64,000 nucleotides of DNA from Melioribacteraceae bacterium (lineage in GTDB: Bacteria; Bacteroidota; Ignavibacteria; Ignavibacteriales; Melioribacteraceae), in contig CP129490.1 in the NCBI GenBank assembly GCA_030584085.1, positions 2,079,511 to 2,143,510 of the forward strand, given 5' to 3'. Below the pieces are notes generated by a model, which was not told the origin of the DNA, ran no database searches, and worked only from the letters and a program-made list of their open reading frames with translations. This document shows, one piece after another, positions 15,374 through 64,000 of this stretch (position 1 is the first letter of the stretch; each line of letters begins with the position of its first letter). The position numbers were made by a program, and so were the translations under genes.

Positions 15374-16126
15374 ATGCGTAAATTGCTGGTTATACCGAGT
15401 ATAGATATAAAGGACGGTAAAATTGTTAGAGTCGTTCAAGGAATACCGGAACTAAATTGTTCTGCCTACGGAGATGATCCGGTTGAAATGGCAATGATTT
15501 GGAGAGCCGAAAATGCGAAGACGATTCACATTGTGGATTTTGATTCATCACATTTTCATTCACATAAAAATTATAATATTATAAAAAAAATTTGTGAGTC
15601 CGTAGTAATTCCTATTGAATACGGCGGTGGCATTACAAACATCGATGATGCAAAACGAGCATTCGACTTAGGAGTTTTTAGAATAGTAGTCGGCAGTTTA
15701 GCATTTGAAAATGAGGAAGAATTTATTAAAATACTAAATGAATTTGGAATGCTGAAGGTTGCAGCGGCAATTGATGTAATTGATAACGAAGTTGTAATAA
15801 AAGGTCGAACAAAAAGAACCGGTGTCAATCCTATTGAATATGCAAAACATCTTGAATCGTTAGGGGTTTGTAGAGTCATTGTAACTGATGTTAAAACAAA
15901 CGGTATGATGAACGGTCCAAACATTCAGTTATCAAATAAAATTGCGGAAGCCACAAATCTTAAAGTATCATTATCGGGTGGAATTGGCGGATATGAAGAT
16001 TTGAAGAAAGTACAGGACGAGTCGAATGAGAGAGTTGATTCAGTAATAATTGGCCGTGCACTTTATGAGAATAAATTTCCATGTCAAAAAATCTGGCGTG
16101 TTGCCGAATCCGGAATATTTAATTAG
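15374..16126 (+). CDS. HisA/HisF-family TIM-barrel protein, second HisA paralogue
   Basis: 250-residue (beta/alpha)8 barrel closest in pattern to HisA, the ProFAR isomerase. Catalytic-type residues are present: the first Asp in IPSIDIKDG, the second in AAIDVIDNE, and a Thr in VTDVKTNGMMNGPN, although the usual DRDG of HisA is DVKTNG here. Phosphate-binding glycines are seen in YGGGITN, VVGSLAF, LSGGIGG and IIGRALYE. A separate, complete HisA is encoded in the his operon at 57541-58257, so this copy is an extra one and may have another substrate. It abuts the acyl-CoA dehydrogenase gene and is followed after 8 nt by a cyclic-nucleotide-binding protein. Confidence 0.85.
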   Translation: MRKLLVIPSIDIKDGKIVRVVQGIPELNCSAYGDDPVEMAMIWRAENAKTIHIVDFDSSHFHSHKNYNIIKKICESVVIPIEYGGGITNIDDAKRAFDLGVFRIVVGSLAFENEEEFIKILNEFGMLKVAAAIDVIDNEVVIKGRTKRTGVNPIEYAKHLESLGVCRVIVTDVKTNGMMNGPNIQLSNKIAEATNLKVSLSGGIGGYEDLKKVQDESNERVDSVIIGRALYENKFPCQKIWRVAESGIFN

Positions 16127-47680: not shown

Positions 47681-47712
47681 TTGACAAAAAAGAGATTAAT
47701 TCTCTATCTTTG
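47681..47712 (+). promoter_or_regulatory. trp operon promoter, TTG-N21-TAnnTTTG type
   Basis: TTGACA at 47681-47686 and TATCTTTG at 47705-47712, with 21 nt between TTG and TA, fit the Bacteroidota -33/-7 consensus. The start of transcription is expected about 4-6 nt after the last G, only a few bases before the leader ATG at 47721. Confidence 0.75.
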
Positions 47713-47720
47713 CAGTCAAC

Positions 47721-47801
47721 ATGATGAAGAACAAAAATAAATATTTCGGTTTTACTTGGGCTTGGTTTTGGTTTAATAAAAGCTGCGGGACTCCTGTGTA
47801 A
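47721..47801 (+). CDS. trpL: trp operon leader peptide
   Basis: A 26-codon ORF (ATG ATG AAG ... GTG TAA). Codons 8-18 encode YFGFTWAWFWF: three Trp, four Phe and one Tyr among eleven residues. It lies between the promoter and an intrinsic terminator ahead of trpE, and the Trp codons form the 5' arm of an alternative RNA pairing. It would sense charged tRNA-Trp, and probably tRNA-Phe, by ribosome stalling. It has a second in-frame ATG immediately after the first and no Shine-Dalgarno. Confidence 0.85.
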   Translation: MMKNKNKYFGFTWAWFWFNKSCGTPV

Positions 47802-47861
47802 AACTGAGCAAATAAAATTTTTAAGAACCCTTCTCAGTCAAGCACTGGGAAGGGTTTTTTT
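47760..47861 (+). promoter_or_regulatory. trp attenuator (segments 1-4)
   Basis: Segment 1 GCTTGGTTTT (47760-47769, inside the Trp codons) pairs over 10 nt, with two wobble pairs, with segment 2 AAAACTGAGC (47800-47809). Segment 2 (ACTGAG) can instead pair with CTCAGT (47833-47838) in segment 3. Segment 3 AACCCTTCTCAGT (47826-47838) pairs with segment 4 ACTGGGAAGGGTT (47844-47856), followed by more T to form the terminator. Confidence 0.85.
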
Positions 47862-56081: not shown

Positions 56082-56690
56082 CTATTTAGTTGAATGTCTT
56101 TTTTCTAACTCTGTTATCACTTCATTTAAGGAGATATTTTTTTCATTCAACATAACAAGTAAGTGAAAAAGTAAGTCAGCTGTTTCATTTATAATTTCAT
56201 TACGATCATTATTTTTTCCAGCGATAACCGTTTCAATTGCTTCTTCCCCGACTTTCTGAATAATTCTACTCTCACCTTGCTTGAATAATTTAGTGGTGTA
56301 AGAATTTTCTGGAAGATCTTCTTTTCTTTTTTTAACTAGATTATCTAAGTACTTGAGAAAAAGGAAATTCTCTTTTTCAATTCCGAAGCAAGAATATTGA
56401 TCTAAATGACAAGTGTTACCTTCCGGATTCGCTTTAATGAGCAATGTATCATTATCGCAATCATTTTTAATATCAACGAGATTCAAATAATTACCGGAAG
56501 TTTCACCTTTCGTCCATAATCTCTTTTTTGAGCGACTGTAAAAAGTTACTTTCTTTTCGTTGATGGTTTTTTGGACTGCTTCTCTGTTCATAAATCCAAG
56601 CATCAATACTTGTCCGGTGAAATTATCTGTAATGACCGCCGGAACAAGACCGTTCATTTTATCAAAATCAATTTTGTTTATATCAATCAT
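56082..56690 (-). CDS. hisIE: phosphoribosyl-AMP cyclohydrolase / phosphoribosyl-ATP pyrophosphatase
   Basis: Bifunctional histidine-pathway enzyme for steps 2 and 3. The ATG at 56690 with GAGG upstream gives 202 residues; a longer frame reaches 56705. The HisI part (about 1-110) has FMNREAVQKT, the Trp of LWTKGETSGN and the Zn site CDNDTLL...NTCHLDQYSCF. The HisE part has RIIQKVGEEAIETVIA and NETADLLFHLLVML. Last gene of the his operon; separated from hisF by a 100-nt gap that holds a repeat. Confidence 0.96.
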   Translation of the reverse strand: MIDINKIDFDKMNGLVPAVITDNFTGQVLMLGFMNREAVQKTINEKKVTFYSRSKKRLWTKGETSGNYLNLVDIKNDCDNDTLLIKANPEGNTCHLDQYSCFGIEKENFLFLKYLDNLVKKRKEDLPENSYTTKLFKQGESRIIQKVGEEAIETVIAGKNNDRNEIINETADLLFHLLVMLNEKNISLNEVITELEKRHSTK

Positions 56691-56730
56691 TAAATCCTCT
56701 TCCAAATTTTATTTAACCTTCTCAGCATCT

Positions 56731-56786
56731 TCTAGTCTTTGCGGTTGTTTTTCATTACTTCACCGCAAAGACGCTAAGGCGCAAAG
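56731..56786. repeat. intergenic inverted repeat with CCGCAAAGACGC-type sequence
   Basis: CTTTGCGGT (56737-56745) faces ACCGCAAAG (56762-56770), followed by ACGCTAAGGCGCAAAG. This kind of CGCAAAGACGCTAAGGCGCAAAG sequence occurs as a dispersed repeat in many genomes. It is the only break in an otherwise tightly packed operon. Confidence 0.55.
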
Positions 56787-56792
56787 TATCTA

Positions 56793-57548
56793 TTAAAACC
56801 TAACCTCTACTCCCTTTTCGCGTAAATACATTTTTAAATTACTTATCTCTAATTCTTGGTAATGAAATAAACTTGCGGCTAAGCATGCATCAACTTCAGA
56901 ATTTTTAAAAGCTTCGAGAAAATGTTCTTTCGTTCCTGCTCCGCCGGATGCAATTACCGGTGTAGAAACCATTTTAGTAAGCTTTGATAAAAATTCTAAA
57001 TCATAACCGCTTTTTGTTCCGTCTTTATCCATTGATGTAAGTAATATCTCTCCTACTCCCCTTTCGCAAACTTCTTTACACCATGCATAACCTTCAAGTT
57101 CGGTTTCTTCTCTTCCGCCTTTTATAAAAACTTTATAAGCATCATCAATCTTTTTAATATCGATCGCCGCTACAATAGCTTGACTTCCGAATTGTTTGGA
57201 TGCATCATTTATTAAATGAGGATTTTTGACAATTGCTGTATTCAACGAGACTTTATCTGCTCCGGCTTTCAAGAGCATATCAATATCGTTTAACTCAGAA
57301 ATACCACCACCGACCGTGAATGGAATACGTATAACTTTGGCGACATCTTTAACAAGATCAAATAATATTTTTCTTTTATCAAAAGAAGCGGTTATATCAA
57401 GAAAGACAAGTTCATCAGCACCTTCATGGTAATATCTTTCTGCTAGTTCAACTGCCGATCCGGCATCGCGAAGATTGACAAAGTTTGTTCCCTTTACAAC
57501 ACGGCCATCTTTCACATCTAGACAAGGTATTATTCTTTTACTAAGCAA
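56793..57548 (-). CDS. hisF: imidazole glycerol phosphate synthase cyclase subunit
   Basis: 251-residue barrel making IGP and AICAR with HisH. First catalytic Asp in [17 protein letters not shown], second in VAAIDIKK; phosphate loops VGGGISE and [11 protein letters not shown]. Overlaps hisA by 8 nt. Confidence 0.97.
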
Positions 57549-58257
57549 ATTTACTTAACTCCTCTATTGATATTCTTCCTTCATAAAACGCTTTCCCAAC
57601 AACGGCATACTTTATCTGATGTTCCTGCAAGTTGTGAATATCTTCTATCCTACTGATACCCCCAGAGGCAATCAAGTTAATATTTGGGAACTTGCTTATT
57701 GTCTTTTTATACAGATTAGTGTTTGGTCCTTTCAGCATTCCATCTTTGTTGATGTCGGTACATAAATAATTAAGTATATGTTTCTCACTCCATTTTTGAA
57801 TGTACTCATTCAAAGAAATGTTTGTTGATTCAGTCCAACCGCTAACTTTGATTTTATCATCCAATACATCCGCTGCAAAAATGAATCTACTTTTATCATA
57901 TAAATCAATCATCGATTTAACAACCGCTTCATCTTTTATGGTTATTGAACCTAAGATGAAGTAATCAATACCAATTTTATCTAACTGTTTTAGATCATCT
58001 AATTTTCTAATTCCTCCGCCGAATTCAACTTTAATTTCAAAACTAGATTTTATTTTTTCTAAAAGATTCAAACAAGTAAATGAACCGGTTTTTGATGCTT
58101 CTAAATCGACTATATGAATCCTCTTAAAGCCGGCATCATAAAATTGTCTTACAACTTCTAAAGGATTTTCTGAGTATTGTTTTGCTGAATTGAAATCACC
58201 TTTGCTTAATCTAACAGCTTTGTTTTCGATTATATCTATAGCTGGTATAACTAACAT
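57541..58257 (-). CDS. hisA: ProFAR isomerase
   Basis: 238-residue barrel for the fourth step of the pathway. Catalytic Asp residues in IPAIDIIENKAVRLSKGDF and FAADVLDDK, Thr in CTDINKDGMLKGPN, phosphate loops FGGGIRK and ASGGISR. This copy sits in the operon between hisH and hisF, so it is the pathway enzyme, in contrast to the paralogue at 15374-16126. Confidence 0.95.
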   Translation of the reverse strand: MLVIPAIDIIENKAVRLSKGDFNSAKQYSENPLEVVRQFYDAGFKRIHIVDLEASKTGSFTCLNLLEKIKSSFEIKVEFGGGIRKLDDLKQLDKIGIDYFILGSITIKDEAVVKSMIDLYDKSRFIFAADVLDDKIKVSGWTESTNISLNEYIQKWSEKHILNYLCTDINKDGMLKGPNTNLYKKTISKFPNINLIASGGISRIEDIHNLQEHQIKYAVVGKAFYEGRISIEELSKFA

Positions 58258-58838
58258 AGTTCAACAAAGTTTTTTAATAATTGAAGTCCCGCTTCACCCG
58301 ATTTTTCCGGGTGGAATTGAACACCATAAAAATTATCTTTTTCTAAAACTGCACAAAATTCTAAATCATGTTCCGTTGTTGCTATTGTAGAATCATTTTT
58401 AGGAATATAATATGAGTGAGCAAAATAGAAATAAGACTTATCATCAATATTGTTAAATAACTTACTATCCTTACTTATATTCACATTGTTCCATCCCATA
58501 TGCGGGACTTTAACTTTTGTCGTATCAAACTTTTTTGCTTCTCCGTTTATGACGCCAAGGCAGGCAACGTCACCCTCTTCGGAACGATCGCATAAAATGT
58601 GCATGCCAAGGCAAATTCCTAGCATTGGCTTTTTGATGACACGTAATAAAGAAAACAGATTTAATAAGTGTAATTTTTTGACAGCCGAGGACGCTTCACC
58701 AACTCCCGGGAAAATTATCTTATCAGCTTCACTTATATCTTTTTCATTTTTTGAGATTATGTGTTCAACACCAATCTCTTTTAACGCATTTGATACCGAT
58801 GCTGTATTACCGGCTCCGTATTCTATTAATGCTATCAT
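58251..58838 (-). CDS. hisH: imidazole glycerol phosphate synthase glutaminase subunit
   Basis: 195 residues. Class I amidotransferase with the nucleophile in LGICLGMHILCD, oxyanion-like PGVGEASSA and His-Glu in VQFHPEKSGEAG. Channels ammonia to HisF. It overlaps hisB by 4 nt (ATGA) and hisA by 7 nt. Confidence 0.96.
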   Translation of the reverse strand: MIALIEYGAGNTASVSNALKEIGVEHIISKNEKDISEADKIIFPGVGEASSAVKKLHLLNLFSLLRVIKKPMLGICLGMHILCDRSEEGDVACLGVINGEAKKFDTTKVKVPHMGWNNVNISKDSKLFNNIDDKSYFYFAHSYYIPKNDSTIATTEHDLEFCAVLEKDNFYGVQFHPEKSGEAGLQLLKNFVELC

Positions 58839-59737
58839 AATCTTCCCTTCGTAGTAGGTAATTTATTTTCGCTTCTTTCATCAAATCGAACTGCTTCATT
58901 AAGCGTTTTTGCAAATGACTTGAATATTGCTTCAATTTTATGATGATCATTCTTTCCCGAAGCTTTTATGTAAATATTTGCCTTTAATCCTATAGTTAAA
59001 CCTCTGAAAAATTCCTCTACAAGTTCTGTTGGAAACTCACCAACCTTATCTCTTGTAAACTTAGTTTTGAAATTTAAGTAAGGTCTGCCGCTTAAATCCA
59101 GAGTTGTCTCTGCAATCGAATCATCCATCGGAAGCATAAAGCCAAATCTTTTTATTCCCTTTTTGTCTCCCAGTGCTTTGACTAAACATTCACCTAAAGT
59201 AATGCCGGTATCCTCAACTGTATGATGATAATCTACCTGCAAATCGCCCTTTACATTAAGCATGATATCAATATTTGAATGTTTGCTCAACTGTTCGAGC
59301 ATATGGTCAAAGAATCCGATACCTGTATTTATCTTAAATTTACCTGAACCGTCAAGATTTAGTTTTACATTTACTTTCGTTTCATTCGTATTACGAATTT
59401 GCTGAGATGATCTAGTTTGAGATAGAACAAATTCAATCGCTTCTGAAATATTTTTACTTTTTCCATTCTTACCGACCAGTATTTGTTTAGCTTTTACTTT
59501 TTGGTTTTTCTTATCCGTTATAAAATAATTTGTTTGATAATCATTCTTACTCTCGGATTCAAAGTTAATTGCTTCCAATTCCATTAATCTTTGAATAATC
59601 GGGTCCGAGAAAGTTGGTGTTGGATAAAGTGAAACAGCTATTCCACGATTAACTAACTTTTTCAAGGAACTTATCATTCCATTAGAAAGATCGGAATGCA
59701 GATTTAATAAACTTTTATTTATTATAACTCTTGTCAT
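58835..59737 (-). CDS. hisB: imidazoleglycerol-phosphate dehydratase with remnant HAD-like N-terminus
   Basis: 300 residues. The C-terminal ~190 form a complete dehydratase with Mn ligands in GFFDHMLEQLSKHS, VDYHHTVEDTGITLGE and KNDHHKIEAIFKSF. The first ~105 residues look like a shrunken HAD phosphatase: hydrophobic strand VIINKSLLNLH where the catalytic DxDGT should be, then SLKKLVNRGIAVSLYP resembling the KLxxxGYxLVxxTN strand. No DxD remains, and the domain is about 60 residues shorter than in bifunctional HisB. Histidinol phosphatase activity is therefore unlikely and must come from elsewhere. Confidence 0.93.
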   Translation of the reverse strand: MTRVIINKSLLNLHSDLSNGMISSLKKLVNRGIAVSLYPTPTFSDPIIQRLMELEAINFESESKNDYQTNYFITDKKNQKVKAKQILVGKNGKSKNISEAIEFVLSQTRSSQQIRNTNETKVNVKLNLDGSGKFKINTGIGFFDHMLEQLSKHSNIDIMLNVKGDLQVDYHHTVEDTGITLGECLVKALGDKKGIKRFGFMLPMDDSIAETTLDLSGRPYLNFKTKFTRDKVGEFPTELVEEFFRGLTIGLKANIYIKASGKNDHHKIEAIFKSFAKTLNEAVRFDERSENKLPTTKGRL

Positions 59738-60783
59738 AATACAACTCTCAATTCTTGAATAAACTTTTGATTTTGTTCACGTGTACCAACAGTAACTCTT
59801 AAACATCCTTCCAAGTTCAATTGATTCGATCTATTTCTAATAATTATTCCTTTCTCTATTAACTTCTCATGAACCTTATCAGCCTTACTAACCTTAAATA
59901 AAATATAATTCGCATCAGAAGGATAAACGTTTATAATACCTTTTATTGATTTCAATTCTTCCGTAAGATAATCTCTTTCGATTTTAATTTTTTCTAGGAT
60001 ATCATTTTTATGATCAATCTTGTTCAAAGATCTAAGCACAATATTTTCAGTTAATTTATTGATGTTATAAGGTGATTTAATATTCATCAATAATTTCACA
60101 ATAAATGAATCTGAGACTGCAAAACCAAAACGAGCTCCGGCTAAGCCCCATGCTTTAGAAAATGTCCGAAGTAATACAATGTTAGAATGTTTACTTATTT
60201 CATCCAACAATTCTCTTTCATCATAAAAATCAATATACGCTTGGTCAATAACGACAATGCCGTTAAAGTTTTCGGATAAACGAATGATATCTATTTTATT
60301 TATAATATTAGCTGTCGGATTATTTGGTGAGCAGATAAAAATAATTTTTATTGACTCCAATTCCTGCTTTAGAAATTGTTCTACATTAATTTGAAAGTCG
60401 TTGTCCAATTCATAAATAATTGTCTCAACATCTTGAATATTGCAAACTACTTTATACATACCATATGTTGGTTCAAAGATTGCTGCTTTATCTTTCCCCG
60501 GTTCACAAAATATTCTTATTAATAAATCAATTATTTCATCGGAACCGACACCACAGAAAATATTATCCGGATTGATCTTTAAATAACCCCCAATGCTTTG
60601 CCTCAGTTTTAGTTGAGTTGGATCGGGATATCTATTTAACTCTAGATCATCATTGTCAATTACTGATCCGAAAGCATTTTCATTGGCATCTAAAAGTAAT
60701 CCGTTAATATGCTGACTTCGCGCAGATGTGTATGGTTTCAGTTTTAGAATATTTGGTCTAACAAGTTTTTCTAAGTCAATCAT
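59734..60783 (-). CDS. hisC: histidinol-phosphate aminotransferase
   Basis: 349 residues, fold type I PLP enzyme. LLLDANENAFGS at the start, GVGSDEIIDLLIR, CSPNNPTAN, VVIDQAYIDF and the PLP Lys in LRTFSKAWGLAGARFGF are all diagnostic. It overlaps hisB by 4 nt and hisD by 8 nt. Confidence 0.96.
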   Translation of the reverse strand: MIDLEKLVRPNILKLKPYTSARSQHINGLLLDANENAFGSVIDNDDLELNRYPDPTQLKLRQSIGGYLKINPDNIFCGVGSDEIIDLLIRIFCEPGKDKAAIFEPTYGMYKVVCNIQDVETIIYELDNDFQINVEQFLKQELESIKIIFICSPNNPTANIINKIDIIRLSENFNGIVVIDQAYIDFYDERELLDEISKHSNIVLLRTFSKAWGLAGARFGFAVSDSFIVKLLMNIKSPYNINKLTENIVLRSLNKIDHKNDILEKIKIERDYLTEELKSIKGIINVYPSDANYILFKVSKADKVHEKLIEKGIIIRNRSNQLNLEGCLRVTVGTREQNQKFIQELRVVL

Positions 60784-62050
60784 TCAATCTTACCTCCACT
60801 GCATTTGCATGAGCTTTTAAACCTTCTGCATTTGCCATATCTATGACAGTTTTACCAATGTTTATAATTCCTTCTTTTGATAGTGACTGATAGGTAATTC
60901 CTTTCATGAAAGAAAGTAAATTTACACCGCTGAAAGTTTTTGCGAAACCATATGTTGGAAGCGAGTGATTTGTACCGGAAGCATAATCTCCCGCACTTTC
61001 GGGAGTGTAATTACCGAGAAACACTGAACCGGCATTTTGAACTTGTTTAAGAAAAGAGTTTGCATTTTCTATTTGCAGAATTAAATGTTCGGGTGCATAA
61101 TTATTACTAAAACTTATTGCATTCTCAATTGAATCACATTTCAATAGTAACGATTTCTCCAATGCTTTCTCAGCTATTTCTTTTCGAGGTAATTTTTCCA
61201 ATTGCTTGATTACTTCCAATTCAACTTCATCGATTATCTTTTGGCTAGTCGAAATAAGAATTACTTGAGAATCAATTCCATGTTCAGCTTGTGACAACAA
61301 GTCAGCGGCAGCGTACTTAGGATTTGCATTCTCATCTGCAATAATAATCACTTCACTCGGTCCAGCCGGCATATCTATTGCACATCCATCGGGATCAATA
61401 CTAACTAAACTTTTTGCAGCGGTTACAAATTGATTACCGGGACCAAAAACTTTATCAACTTTTTTTACTTCCTCAGTACCGTATGCCATAAAACCAATTG
61501 CTTGAGCACCACCCAAGTCATAGACTTCATCGATCCCAAGAACTTGAGAACAATAAAGAACTTCATTTGATGGTTTTGGTGAACAAACTACAATTCTTTT
61601 GCATCCTGTTATCTTTGCGGGAATTGCAAGCATTAATAAAGTAGAGAACAGTGAAGCAGTTCCACCGGGAATGTAAAGTCCAACATTTTCAATAGCTCTG
61701 TAAACTCTCCCGCATTTAACACCTTTCATTGTCTCAATTTCATAGTCTTTTGGAAACTGTACTTCATGAAATTTTGTGATGTTTGCGATAGCTGATTTAA
61801 TCGCTTGCTTCAAATCGGAATCAATAGATTGTTCCGCTTCATCAATGTCTTTTTGTTTTACTCTCAAATCGGAATCTTTTAGTTCGTCATATTCTTTGGC
61901 GAATTTAATAATTGCATTCATTCCTTCGTTTTTAATTTCACTTAAAATTGGTTGTACAATTCCAAATACTTTTTCATTATCAATCGCCGGTCTTTTGAGA
62001 AGCGGTTGATAATCCTCCTTTGAAATATTTTTTAGATTTACTTTTTTCAT
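60776..62050 (-). CDS. hisD: histidinol dehydrogenase
   Basis: Zn-dependent NAD enzyme for the last two steps. 424 residues from the ATG at 62050, which overlaps the hisG stop (ATGA); a 25-residue longer frame inside hisG is not used. Catalytic pair in LLSQAEHGIDSQ (Glu-His), with VPGGTASLFSTLLM-like YIPGGTASLF, FGPGNQFVTAAK, MPAGPSEVIIIAD and the C-terminal AEGLKAHANAVEVR. Confidence 0.96.
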   Translation of the reverse strand: MKKVNLKNISKEDYQPLLKRPAIDNEKVFGIVQPILSEIKNEGMNAIIKFAKEYDELKDSDLRVKQKDIDEAEQSIDSDLKQAIKSAIANITKFHEVQFPKDYEIETMKGVKCGRVYRAIENVGLYIPGGTASLFSTLLMLAIPAKITGCKRIVVCSPKPSNEVLYCSQVLGIDEVYDLGGAQAIGFMAYGTEEVKKVDKVFGPGNQFVTAAKSLVSIDPDGCAIDMPAGPSEVIIIADENANPKYAAADLLSQAEHGIDSQVILISTSQKIIDEVELEVIKQLEKLPRKEIAEKALEKSLLLKCDSIENAISFSNNYAPEHLILQIENANSFLKQVQNAGSVFLGNYTPESAGDYASGTNHSLPTYGFAKTFSGVNLLSFMKGITYQSLSKEGIINIGKTVIDMANAEGLKAHANAVEVRLND

Positions 62051-62907
62051 AATATCATATTCTCTATTGGTAACAAAATTATTCCGGTAGCACCGATAGA
62101 TTTTAATTCGCCAACTATCGACCAAAATTTTTCCTTAGGAATTACAGCATGGACCGCCACTAAATTTTCTTCAGCCAATGGTACTACTGTAGGACTTTTT
62201 AATGAAGGAATGATTTTCTGAATTTTTTCTAAACTCTCTTTTGCAACATTCATCATTAAGTACTTAGAATTTTTTGCTAGCAGAACGGAATCGATTCGTG
62301 CCTTGAACTCATTCAATAAATTTTGCTTGGTAGGATTAAAATCTTTACTCTTAATTATAACTGCTTCCGATTCAAAAACAGTAAATGATTCTTTAAGTTT
62401 ATTGGACTTGAGCGTGTTGCCGGTTGATACAATATCGCATATATAATCCGCTACTCCGAGTGAAGGCGCTATTTCAACAGAACCGCTAATATCAATTACT
62501 CTTGAGTTAAGTAAATTTTCGTCTAAAAATTTCTTAAGTAATTGAGGGTGGGATGTCGCAATTCTCTTTTCATTAAGAGAAATTAAATCTGAGATATCTT
62601 CTTCTTCGGGGACACCTATCATCAATTTACACTTCCCGAATCCAAGTTTTTTAATTATCTCTGCCTTAGCACCGCGTTCAATTAATACATTCTCACCAAC
62701 AATACCGATATCGGCTACACCGTCTTGAACATATTCGGGAATATCATCATCACGTAAAAAAAGAATATCTAATTTGAAATTATTAGCCGAGATAAATAAT
62801 CTTTCGGAATAATTTTCAATATCGAATCCGCATGATTTAAGGAGTTCGAGAGATTTATCAGACAACCTCCCTTTTTTCTGGATTGCTAGTTTTAGATTAC
62901 CGTTCAT
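62047..62907 (-). CDS. hisG: ATP phosphoribosyltransferase, long form
   Basis: First step of histidine synthesis, 286 residues from the ATG at 62907 with AAGGAG at 62914-62919. LAIQKKGRLSDKSLELL, VADIGIVGENVL and the PRPP loop DIVSTGNTLKSNKL are characteristic. The C-terminal ~80 residues are the regulatory ACT-like domain of the long form, so no HisZ is needed and feedback by histidine is expected. First structural gene, just after the attenuator; an upstream in-frame ATG at 62940 lies inside the terminator hairpin. Confidence 0.96.
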   Translation of the reverse strand: MNGNLKLAIQKKGRLSDKSLELLKSCGFDIENYSERLFISANNFKLDILFLRDDDIPEYVQDGVADIGIVGENVLIERGAKAEIIKKLGFGKCKLMIGVPEEEDISDLISLNEKRIATSHPQLLKKFLDENLLNSRVIDISGSVEIAPSLGVADYICDIVSTGNTLKSNKLKESFTVFESEAVIIKSKDFNPTKQNLLNEFKARIDSVLLAKNSKYLMMNVAKESLEKIQKIIPSLKSPTVVPLAEENLVAVHAVIPKEKFWSIVGELKSIGATGIILLPIENMIL

Positions 62908-62920
62908 TATATTCTCCTTT

Positions 62921-63027
62921 AAAACAAAAAACCCCGGCATGCGCCGGGGTTCTTATTAATTTTTATAAAATTATTTAAATCACATCGACGCTTTCATCAG
63001 AAAGATTAAATGATGATGAGCGTGATG
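62921..63027 (-). promoter_or_regulatory. his attenuator (segments 1-4)
   Basis: On the minus strand, segment 1 CATCACGC (63027-63020, within the His codons) pairs with segment 2 GCGTCGATG (62991-62983) apart from one bulged C. GCGTCG of segment 2 can instead pair, with one G-U, with CGGCGC (62946-62941) in segment 3. Segment 3 ACCCCGGC (62950-62943) pairs with segment 4 GCCGGGGT (62938-62931), then a T run, forming the terminator before hisG. Confidence 0.87.
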
Positions 63028-63048
63028 TAATGTTAAATTGATTTTCAT
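62980..63048 (-). CDS. hisL: his operon leader peptide
   Basis: A 22-codon ORF starting at the ATG 63048-63046. Residues 8-13 are HHAHHH, five His codons in six (63027-63010). It ends TGA at 62982-62980, about 30 nt before the terminator. A ribosome stalled here for lack of charged tRNA-His would cover segment 1 of the attenuator. Too short for standard gene finding. Confidence 0.88.
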   Translation of the reverse strand: MKINLTLHHAHHHLIFLMKASM

Positions 63049-63074
63049 TTCTTTGTCACAACTAAATTGATCCG

Positions 63075-63104
63075 CAAATATAATCAAATATTTTATTCTG
63101 TCAA
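63075..63104 (-). promoter_or_regulatory. his operon promoter, TTG-N19-TAnnTTTG type
   Basis: TTGACA starting at 63104 and TATATTTG at 63082-63075, with exactly 19 nt between TTG and TA, match the Bacteroidota -33/-7 consensus. The start site would be near 63070, giving a leader of about 22 nt before hisL. Confidence 0.8.
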
Positions 63105-63301
63105 GTTTGAGAACGTGTTCATATTGTTTAATGTTCCGAAGACTTCTTAAAGGAAAATCAGGGTGAAAACCTCGATAAAAAGAGCCTCTTTCTCTTATTT
63201 ATTCTTAAAAAAGTACGATTTTACTTAAAAAATTATCCTTTTTTGTCGGTTTTCATTTTTTGTAATATAAATAATCACTAAGTTTCATTAGCAAATTAAG
63301 T

Positions 63302-64000
<699 letters not shown>

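Follow-up and report, generated by a model that had tools for sequence, protein, structure and literature searches.

How does this Melioribacteraceae bacterium match expression of its histidine biosynthesis genes to the supply of histidine? The window examined here, a stretch of 64,000 nucleotides (contig CP129490.1, positions 2,079,511 to 2,143,510), includes a his operon for which the initial annotation proposed an attenuator with an HHAHHH leader peptide at 62921-63104. All of the proposed elements are present in that region, on the minus strand ahead of hisG. We conclude, with a probability of about 0.92, that the his leader controls the his operon by classical ribosome-mediated transcription attenuation and senses charged tRNA-His. 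The features concerned are:

63356-64000, plus strand: divergent glutamate dehydrogenase gene (NCBIfam GDH matches), extending past the window edge
63075-63104, minus strand: promoter, TTGACA ... TATATTTG (TTG-N19-TATATTTG)
62980-63048, minus strand: ORF of the leader peptide MKINLTLHHAHHHLIFLMKASM (hisL-like), of a His-rich kind kept in 41 of the order's 42 hisG genomes
63010-63039, minus strand: segment 1, the partner of segment 2, which holds the His codons (63027-63010)
62972-63000, minus strand: segment 2, with a GCCGG-like core kept in relatives; the antiterminator strand is 62992-62981 (AGCGTCGATGTG)
62940-62951, minus strand: segment 3, comprising the terminator 5' arm and loop bases, with the antiterminator partner AACCCCGGCGCA; its duplex with segment 2 shows covariation
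62921-62954, minus strand: intrinsic terminator, a 12-pair stem (62954-62927) plus a U tract, with stem covariation in 37 aligned order members
62047-62907, minus strand: hisG, the first structural gene (TIGR00070, 194.9 bits, cut-off 75.75), with GGAG at 62917-62914 and ATG at 62907
56082-62053, minus strand: the remaining operon (hisD, hisC, hisB, hisH, hisA, hisF, hisIE), contiguous ORFs with NCBIfam matches

NCBIfam assignments give the gene order hisGDCBHAF-IE. As the glutamate dehydrogenase gene is divergent, an attenuator and terminator at this position can serve the his operon only. No tRNA was detected by ARAGORN within 62000-64000. Among the his genes themselves, HisB (58835-59737, minus strand) has an N-terminal extension of ~106 residues before the dehydratase domain; this extension may be a shrunken phosphatase half, because the bifunctional HisB model matches the protein only from residue 62. 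A second HisA-like gene, recognized by eye from its translation, lies outside the operon at 15374-16126 (plus strand).

The promoter had been described as a consensus one. This description stands in that TTGACA (63104-63099), a 16-nt spacer and TATATT match the sigma-70 consensus at 11 of 12 positions; it has to be amended in that TATATT runs on as TATATTTG from 63082, which fits TAnnTTTG, the -7 box of Bacteroidota-type promoters. By sequence, the his promoter matches this box at least as well as it does the sigma-70 consensus. Upstream of the leader, TTG-N17..21-TAnnTTTG is found in 23 of 39 relatives, compared with 0.9% of shuffled copies.

The leader ORF extends from the ATG at 63048 to the TGA at 62980 and has, as originally proposed, 22 sense codons, with His at codons 8, 9, 11, 12 and 13 (five in six, giving HHAHHH). 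In the genome of 3,742,376 bases the HHxHHH codon pattern (CAYCAYNNNCAYCAYCAY) has 2 sites, and the reversed pattern, used as a control, has 1. The other HHxHHH site was considered as a second leader and rejected, since it lies within a long transporter-like ORF, in antisense orientation.

The initial annotation had named the absence of His-codon leader ORFs before hisG in close relatives as the observation that would refute the attenuator. A search for HisG (PF01634) was positive in 128 of 148 genomes from the GTDB phylum and in 112 of 294 from the class, and upstream regions were taken for all 112 class genomes with hisG. Leaders were recognized as short ORFs upstream of hisG in which a stretch of 7 residues contains 3 or more His. 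Within the same GTDB order such a leader is present in 41 of 42 hisG genomes, directly before the gene: 25/25 in the window's own family (f1), 14/15 in f2 and 2/2 in f34. The refuting observation is thus not borne out by the relatives. The same criterion was satisfied by 1/42 reverse complements, 1/42 segments taken further upstream and 12/840 shuffles. When a terminator downstream of the ORF was required as well, the detector scored 39/42 in the order and none in any of the three controls. It missed L076 and L102, in which the terminator stems contain a mismatch; on reading the sequences, leader and terminator are present in both, folded between hand-picked limits. Full leader and terminator anatomy is therefore kept in 40/42 genomes, 38 by the detector and two by eye. 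In L085 the leader is present, the antiterminator is poor (-3.7) and the terminator is atypical. The sole order member without a leader is L050 (G363). The hisG region of this genome looks GC-rich, unlike those of other order members, and is possibly a stray contig in the assembly.

Among the remaining members of the class, a leader directly precedes hisG in 6 of 67 usable genomes (3 further genomes had incomplete upstream regions). A long ORF closely precedes hisG in all genomes of families f4 (7/7) and f7 (12/12) and in 11/12 of f9, so any leader would sit elsewhere. A leader is found where hisG comes first in its transcription unit, and is mostly missing where the gene closely follows a long ORF. 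Family f3 (e.g., L058, L067, L086) has no leader in 18 genomes, and a long ORF precedes hisG in 4/18 only; judging from these upstream regions, control has apparently been lost or replaced.

The leader region of the window folds at -48.6 kcal/mol, compared with a shuffle mean of -30.2 (z = -4.7), and both pairings anticipated in the initial annotation are recovered. The duplex of segment 1, where the His codons lie, with segment 2 (63039-63010 with 63000-62972) has -24.9 kcal/mol, and the alternative duplex of segment 2 with the 5' arm and loop bases of the terminator (AGCGTCGATGTG at 62992-62981 with AACCCCGGCGCA at 62951-62940) has -11.3 kcal/mol. In neither case did any of 200 segment 2 shuffles reach the value, and the alternative helices are mutually exclusive. 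The terminator hairpin is GC-rich and ends ~20 nt 5' of the hisG ATG, leaving the start codon outside the hairpin. It is conceivable that a stalled ribosome alters structure near the hisG start and acts on translation with no termination at all, as the leader is near hisG, some attenuators act on the ribosome-binding site (excerpt of PMC9413887), and the His leaders of Sphingobacteriaceae, discussed below, lack a recognizable terminator. However, a GC-rich hairpin with a U tract stands in front of the hisG start codon, in an anatomy kept in 40/42 genomes, and we regard translation-level control as unlikely here.

The duplex, permutation and nascent-RNA tests were carried out on 39 genomes of the order (L050, L076 and L102 were skipped). 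Shuffling of segment 2 gave p<=0.05 for the 2:3 duplex in 35/39 genomes and for the 1:2 duplex in 26/39. When each segment was paired with its own partner or with partners swapped between genomes, mean energies were -13.2 vs -11.1 kcal/mol for 2:3 and -14.2 vs -10.4 kcal/mol for 1:2. An own-partner advantage of this size was matched in 0 of 20,000 permutations for either duplex; these permutations ignore phylogeny, and the outcome was again 0/20,000 for both duplexes when each genus was represented by a single genome (25 genomes). Among these representatives the own partner outranks every other in just 2/25 (2:3) and 6/25 (1:2), because GCCGG/CCGGC cores are shared.

Compensatory changes were counted on a MAFFT alignment of 37 of the 39 order members found by the detector, leaving out L085, whose anatomy does not match, and L098, whose leader is identical to that of L096. 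The antiterminator is paired in 80.3% of cells, and 5 of its 8 pairs have changed on both sides. Such two-sided changes amount to 27 cells, compared with 15.4 +/- 3.3 in shuffles (0/500 as high), whereas the count of pairs affected by them is not distinctive against the same shuffles (138/500). Antiterminator covariation is 0.245, compared with 0.049-0.080 for slid versions of the helix. The terminator is paired in 90.7% of cells, and two-sided changes affect 5 of its 9 pairs. The locus thus combines an ORF with end-product codons between promoter and first gene, an intrinsic terminator between that ORF and hisG, an antiterminator that uses the terminator 5' arm and covaries with it, and a 1:2 helix that competes with the antiterminator.

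In a single genome, a gene for a small functional peptide followed by its own terminator, with no regulation of hisG, would look identical. The relatives argue strongly against this. Apart from the His run, the leader peptide is poorly conserved. In L061, L075 and L100 segment 2 is located 3' of the leader stop codon, outside the ORF, and the conserved GCCGG is therefore an RNA signal and not a peptide signal. Moreover, the unit tracks hisG, which is the next gene after the terminator. A free-standing peptide gene is consequently very improbable, and the RNA anatomy is better read as an attenuator of the his operon.

No Rfam family matches in the window at gathering scores. At a permissive threshold the scores are 36.8 bits for RF00514 His_leader, where gathering is at 49, and 36.3 bits for Leu_leader, and these sub-threshold matches are unspecific; membership in RF00514 was rejected on this score. 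Membership among T-box leaders was rejected as well, no T-box covariance model having matched at gathering or sub-threshold scores. His operons of other phyla do use T-boxes (excerpt of PMC9413887), which lends some support to the idea that the region is a T-box or another tRNA- or ligand-binding leader in which the His codons are incidental. Yet the His ORF is kept throughout the order with the one exception, and segments 1 and 2 covary. Given this, and the Rfam result, such a leader is hardly credible.

Nascent RNA was modelled up to the terminator loop together with a ribosome footprint, and the terminator 5' arm was scored as engaged upstream at P>0.5. This is the case in 39/39 genomes with the ribosome stalled at an early His codon, in 37/39 with a stall at a late His codon, in 4/39 when the ribosome has reached the stop codon, and in 23/39 with no ribosome. 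In the window genome the corresponding values are 0.71 (early), 0.71 (late), 0.30 (stop) and 0.20 (no ribosome); a codon-by-codon calculation with a slightly different measure gave 0.47-0.48 at the stop. As the antiterminator has P>0.5 in 23/39 genomes without a ribosome, 1:2 does not dominate by default in all of them. Once the leader transcript is complete, the terminator belongs to the minimum-energy structure wherever the ribosome is placed in the model. This is what one would expect if the mechanism relies on prior formation of the antiterminator. Antitermination then requires a kinetic commitment ahead of the synthesis of segment 4, a step that we infer.

Leader translation, ribosome stalling, transcription-translation coupling, termination itself and a histidine response would then be connected as follows. 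RNA polymerase would start near 63069, with a ribosome translating the 22-codon leader behind it. With ample charged tRNA-His, the ribosome would reach the stop codon and cover segment 2, allowing the 3:4 terminator to form before hisG. With charged tRNA-His scarce, it would stall on the HHAHHH codons and mask segment 1, leaving segment 2 to pair with the terminator 5' arm and loop, and transcription would read through into hisGDCBHAF-IE. Without translation, 1:2 would form and termination would be favoured in the window genome, less clearly in others. On this scheme the his genes are very probably made only under histidine shortage.

The initial annotation also recorded trp attenuation in the same window, and this is borne out by the following feature:

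47681-47856, plus strand: trp attenuator before trpE, with promoter, WAWFW leader (47721-47801) and terminator (47826-47856)

The trp promoter (TTGACA at 47681, TATCTTTG at 47705) is Bacteroidota-type, and the leader MMKNKNKYFGFTWAWFWFNKSCGTPV is followed by a strong terminator and then by trpE. In the window genome the 1:2 duplex has -20.9 kcal/mol, the 2:3 duplex -8.5 kcal/mol and the fold a z of -3.8. As judged from these sequence features, the trp attenuator is anatomically real.

A further claim was that the locus follows enterobacterial logic in an organism far from that group. The elements are confirmed, as described above; within the phylum the arrangement is nothing unusual. Beyond the class, the survey covered 42 of 108 hisG genomes, which are not a fair sample because 22 of them were the best-scoring HisG matches; a His-rich ORF was found in 21 of these 22 and in 6 of the 20 further genomes (one of them, L144, doubtful). 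Among 80 named HisG loci (GTDB 220), which include Ignavibacteriales, Melioribacteraceae, a Melioribacter roseus MAG, Pedobacter, Mucilaginibacter and Kordia, a His-rich ORF is present in 76, and 33 of the 80 also have a canonical terminator downstream of it. His leaders are thus widespread in Bacteroidota, and that of the window is a well-supported further case. Published work points the same way: a Flavobacterium psychrophilum transcriptome gave clues to leader-peptide attenuation of amino-acid operons (excerpt of PMC9723704).

A side observation concerns loci of the Sphingobacteriaceae type. In L171-L231 (including Pedobacter, Mucilaginibacter and Sphingobacterium loci) an HHLHLHHR-like His leader lies ~60-160 nt before hisG. 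In 19 aligned loci, an AUCGCC/GGCGAU hairpin inside the leader, after the His run, is conserved; there is also a small UUU(C/G)UAC..(G/C)AAA hairpin, and the hairpins show G-C to A-U and C-G to G-C swaps. A scan downstream of the leader found no intrinsic terminator in these loci, by a search that needs three G-C pairs and a T-rich tail and that a weak terminator could escape. If real, this pattern would mean the same sensor with a different output.

These observations lead us to propose, tentatively and at somewhat less than even odds, that leader-peptide histidine attenuation might be an old, phylum-wide trait of Bacteroidota and not a proteobacterial invention with rare transfer. The His-run sensor would have been kept while the output changed, from a canonical terminator in the order and several other families to a conserved small hairpin pair, with no recognizable intrinsic terminator, in Sphingobacteriaceae. 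If this were true, Sphingobacteriaceae would convert ribosome stalling into his control by a different route.

Literature searches found no his attenuator for the class of the window, so that the locus provides a complete, covariation-supported one, conserved across an order, in a class for which none was found. Attenuation candidates from Bacteroidetes/Chlorobi are reportedly listed in the large survey of bacterial attenuation by Lopatovskaya et al. of 2010, and relatives of the window element may already be among them. This survey is cited in PMC4833913, which, like PMC7366714 and PMC6429828, treats leader genes or uORFs in general terms in the excerpts drawn on here. An account of the his genes of the superphylum mentions attenuation for E. 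coli and S. enterica only, as far as its excerpt goes (PMC8305728). A possible gamma-proteobacterial origin of amino-acid attenuators, followed by few transfers, has been suggested (excerpt of PMC3766115); the window attenuator speaks against an origin of this kind, and Rfam models miss such leaders. Because ribosome-mediated attenuation depends on a ribosome that follows closely behind RNA polymerase, its conservation is also indirect evidence for coupling in this lineage. The element could serve as a ready reporter for both attenuator origin and transcription-translation coupling.

The nearest published counterpart by taxonomy is a hisG 5' element conserved in Flavobacteriaceae, which has no Rfam match (excerpt of PMC9723704). 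It shares the GTDB phylum and the position before hisG with the window leader; the excerpt gives neither a His-leader sequence nor a mechanism for hisG, and the class of the window is unmentioned there. Predicted His-leader attenuators of some Firmicutes are similar in having three to five His codons, a terminator and an antiterminator, and no RF00514 match, whereas they belong to another phylum and differ from the window leader in sequence (excerpt of PMC9413887). The window leader resembles the enterobacterial his attenuator (RF00514) in its short ORF with a run of His codons, its alternative antiterminator and terminator, and its location directly before hisG; it is unlike RF00514 in scoring below the gathering threshold and in its Bacteroidota-type promoter. 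The layout of the enterobacterial his attenuator is longer than a three-way 1:2 / 2:3 / 3:4 arrangement. In this respect the window leader differs from the enterobacterial his attenuator, and its three-way layout is like that of trp.
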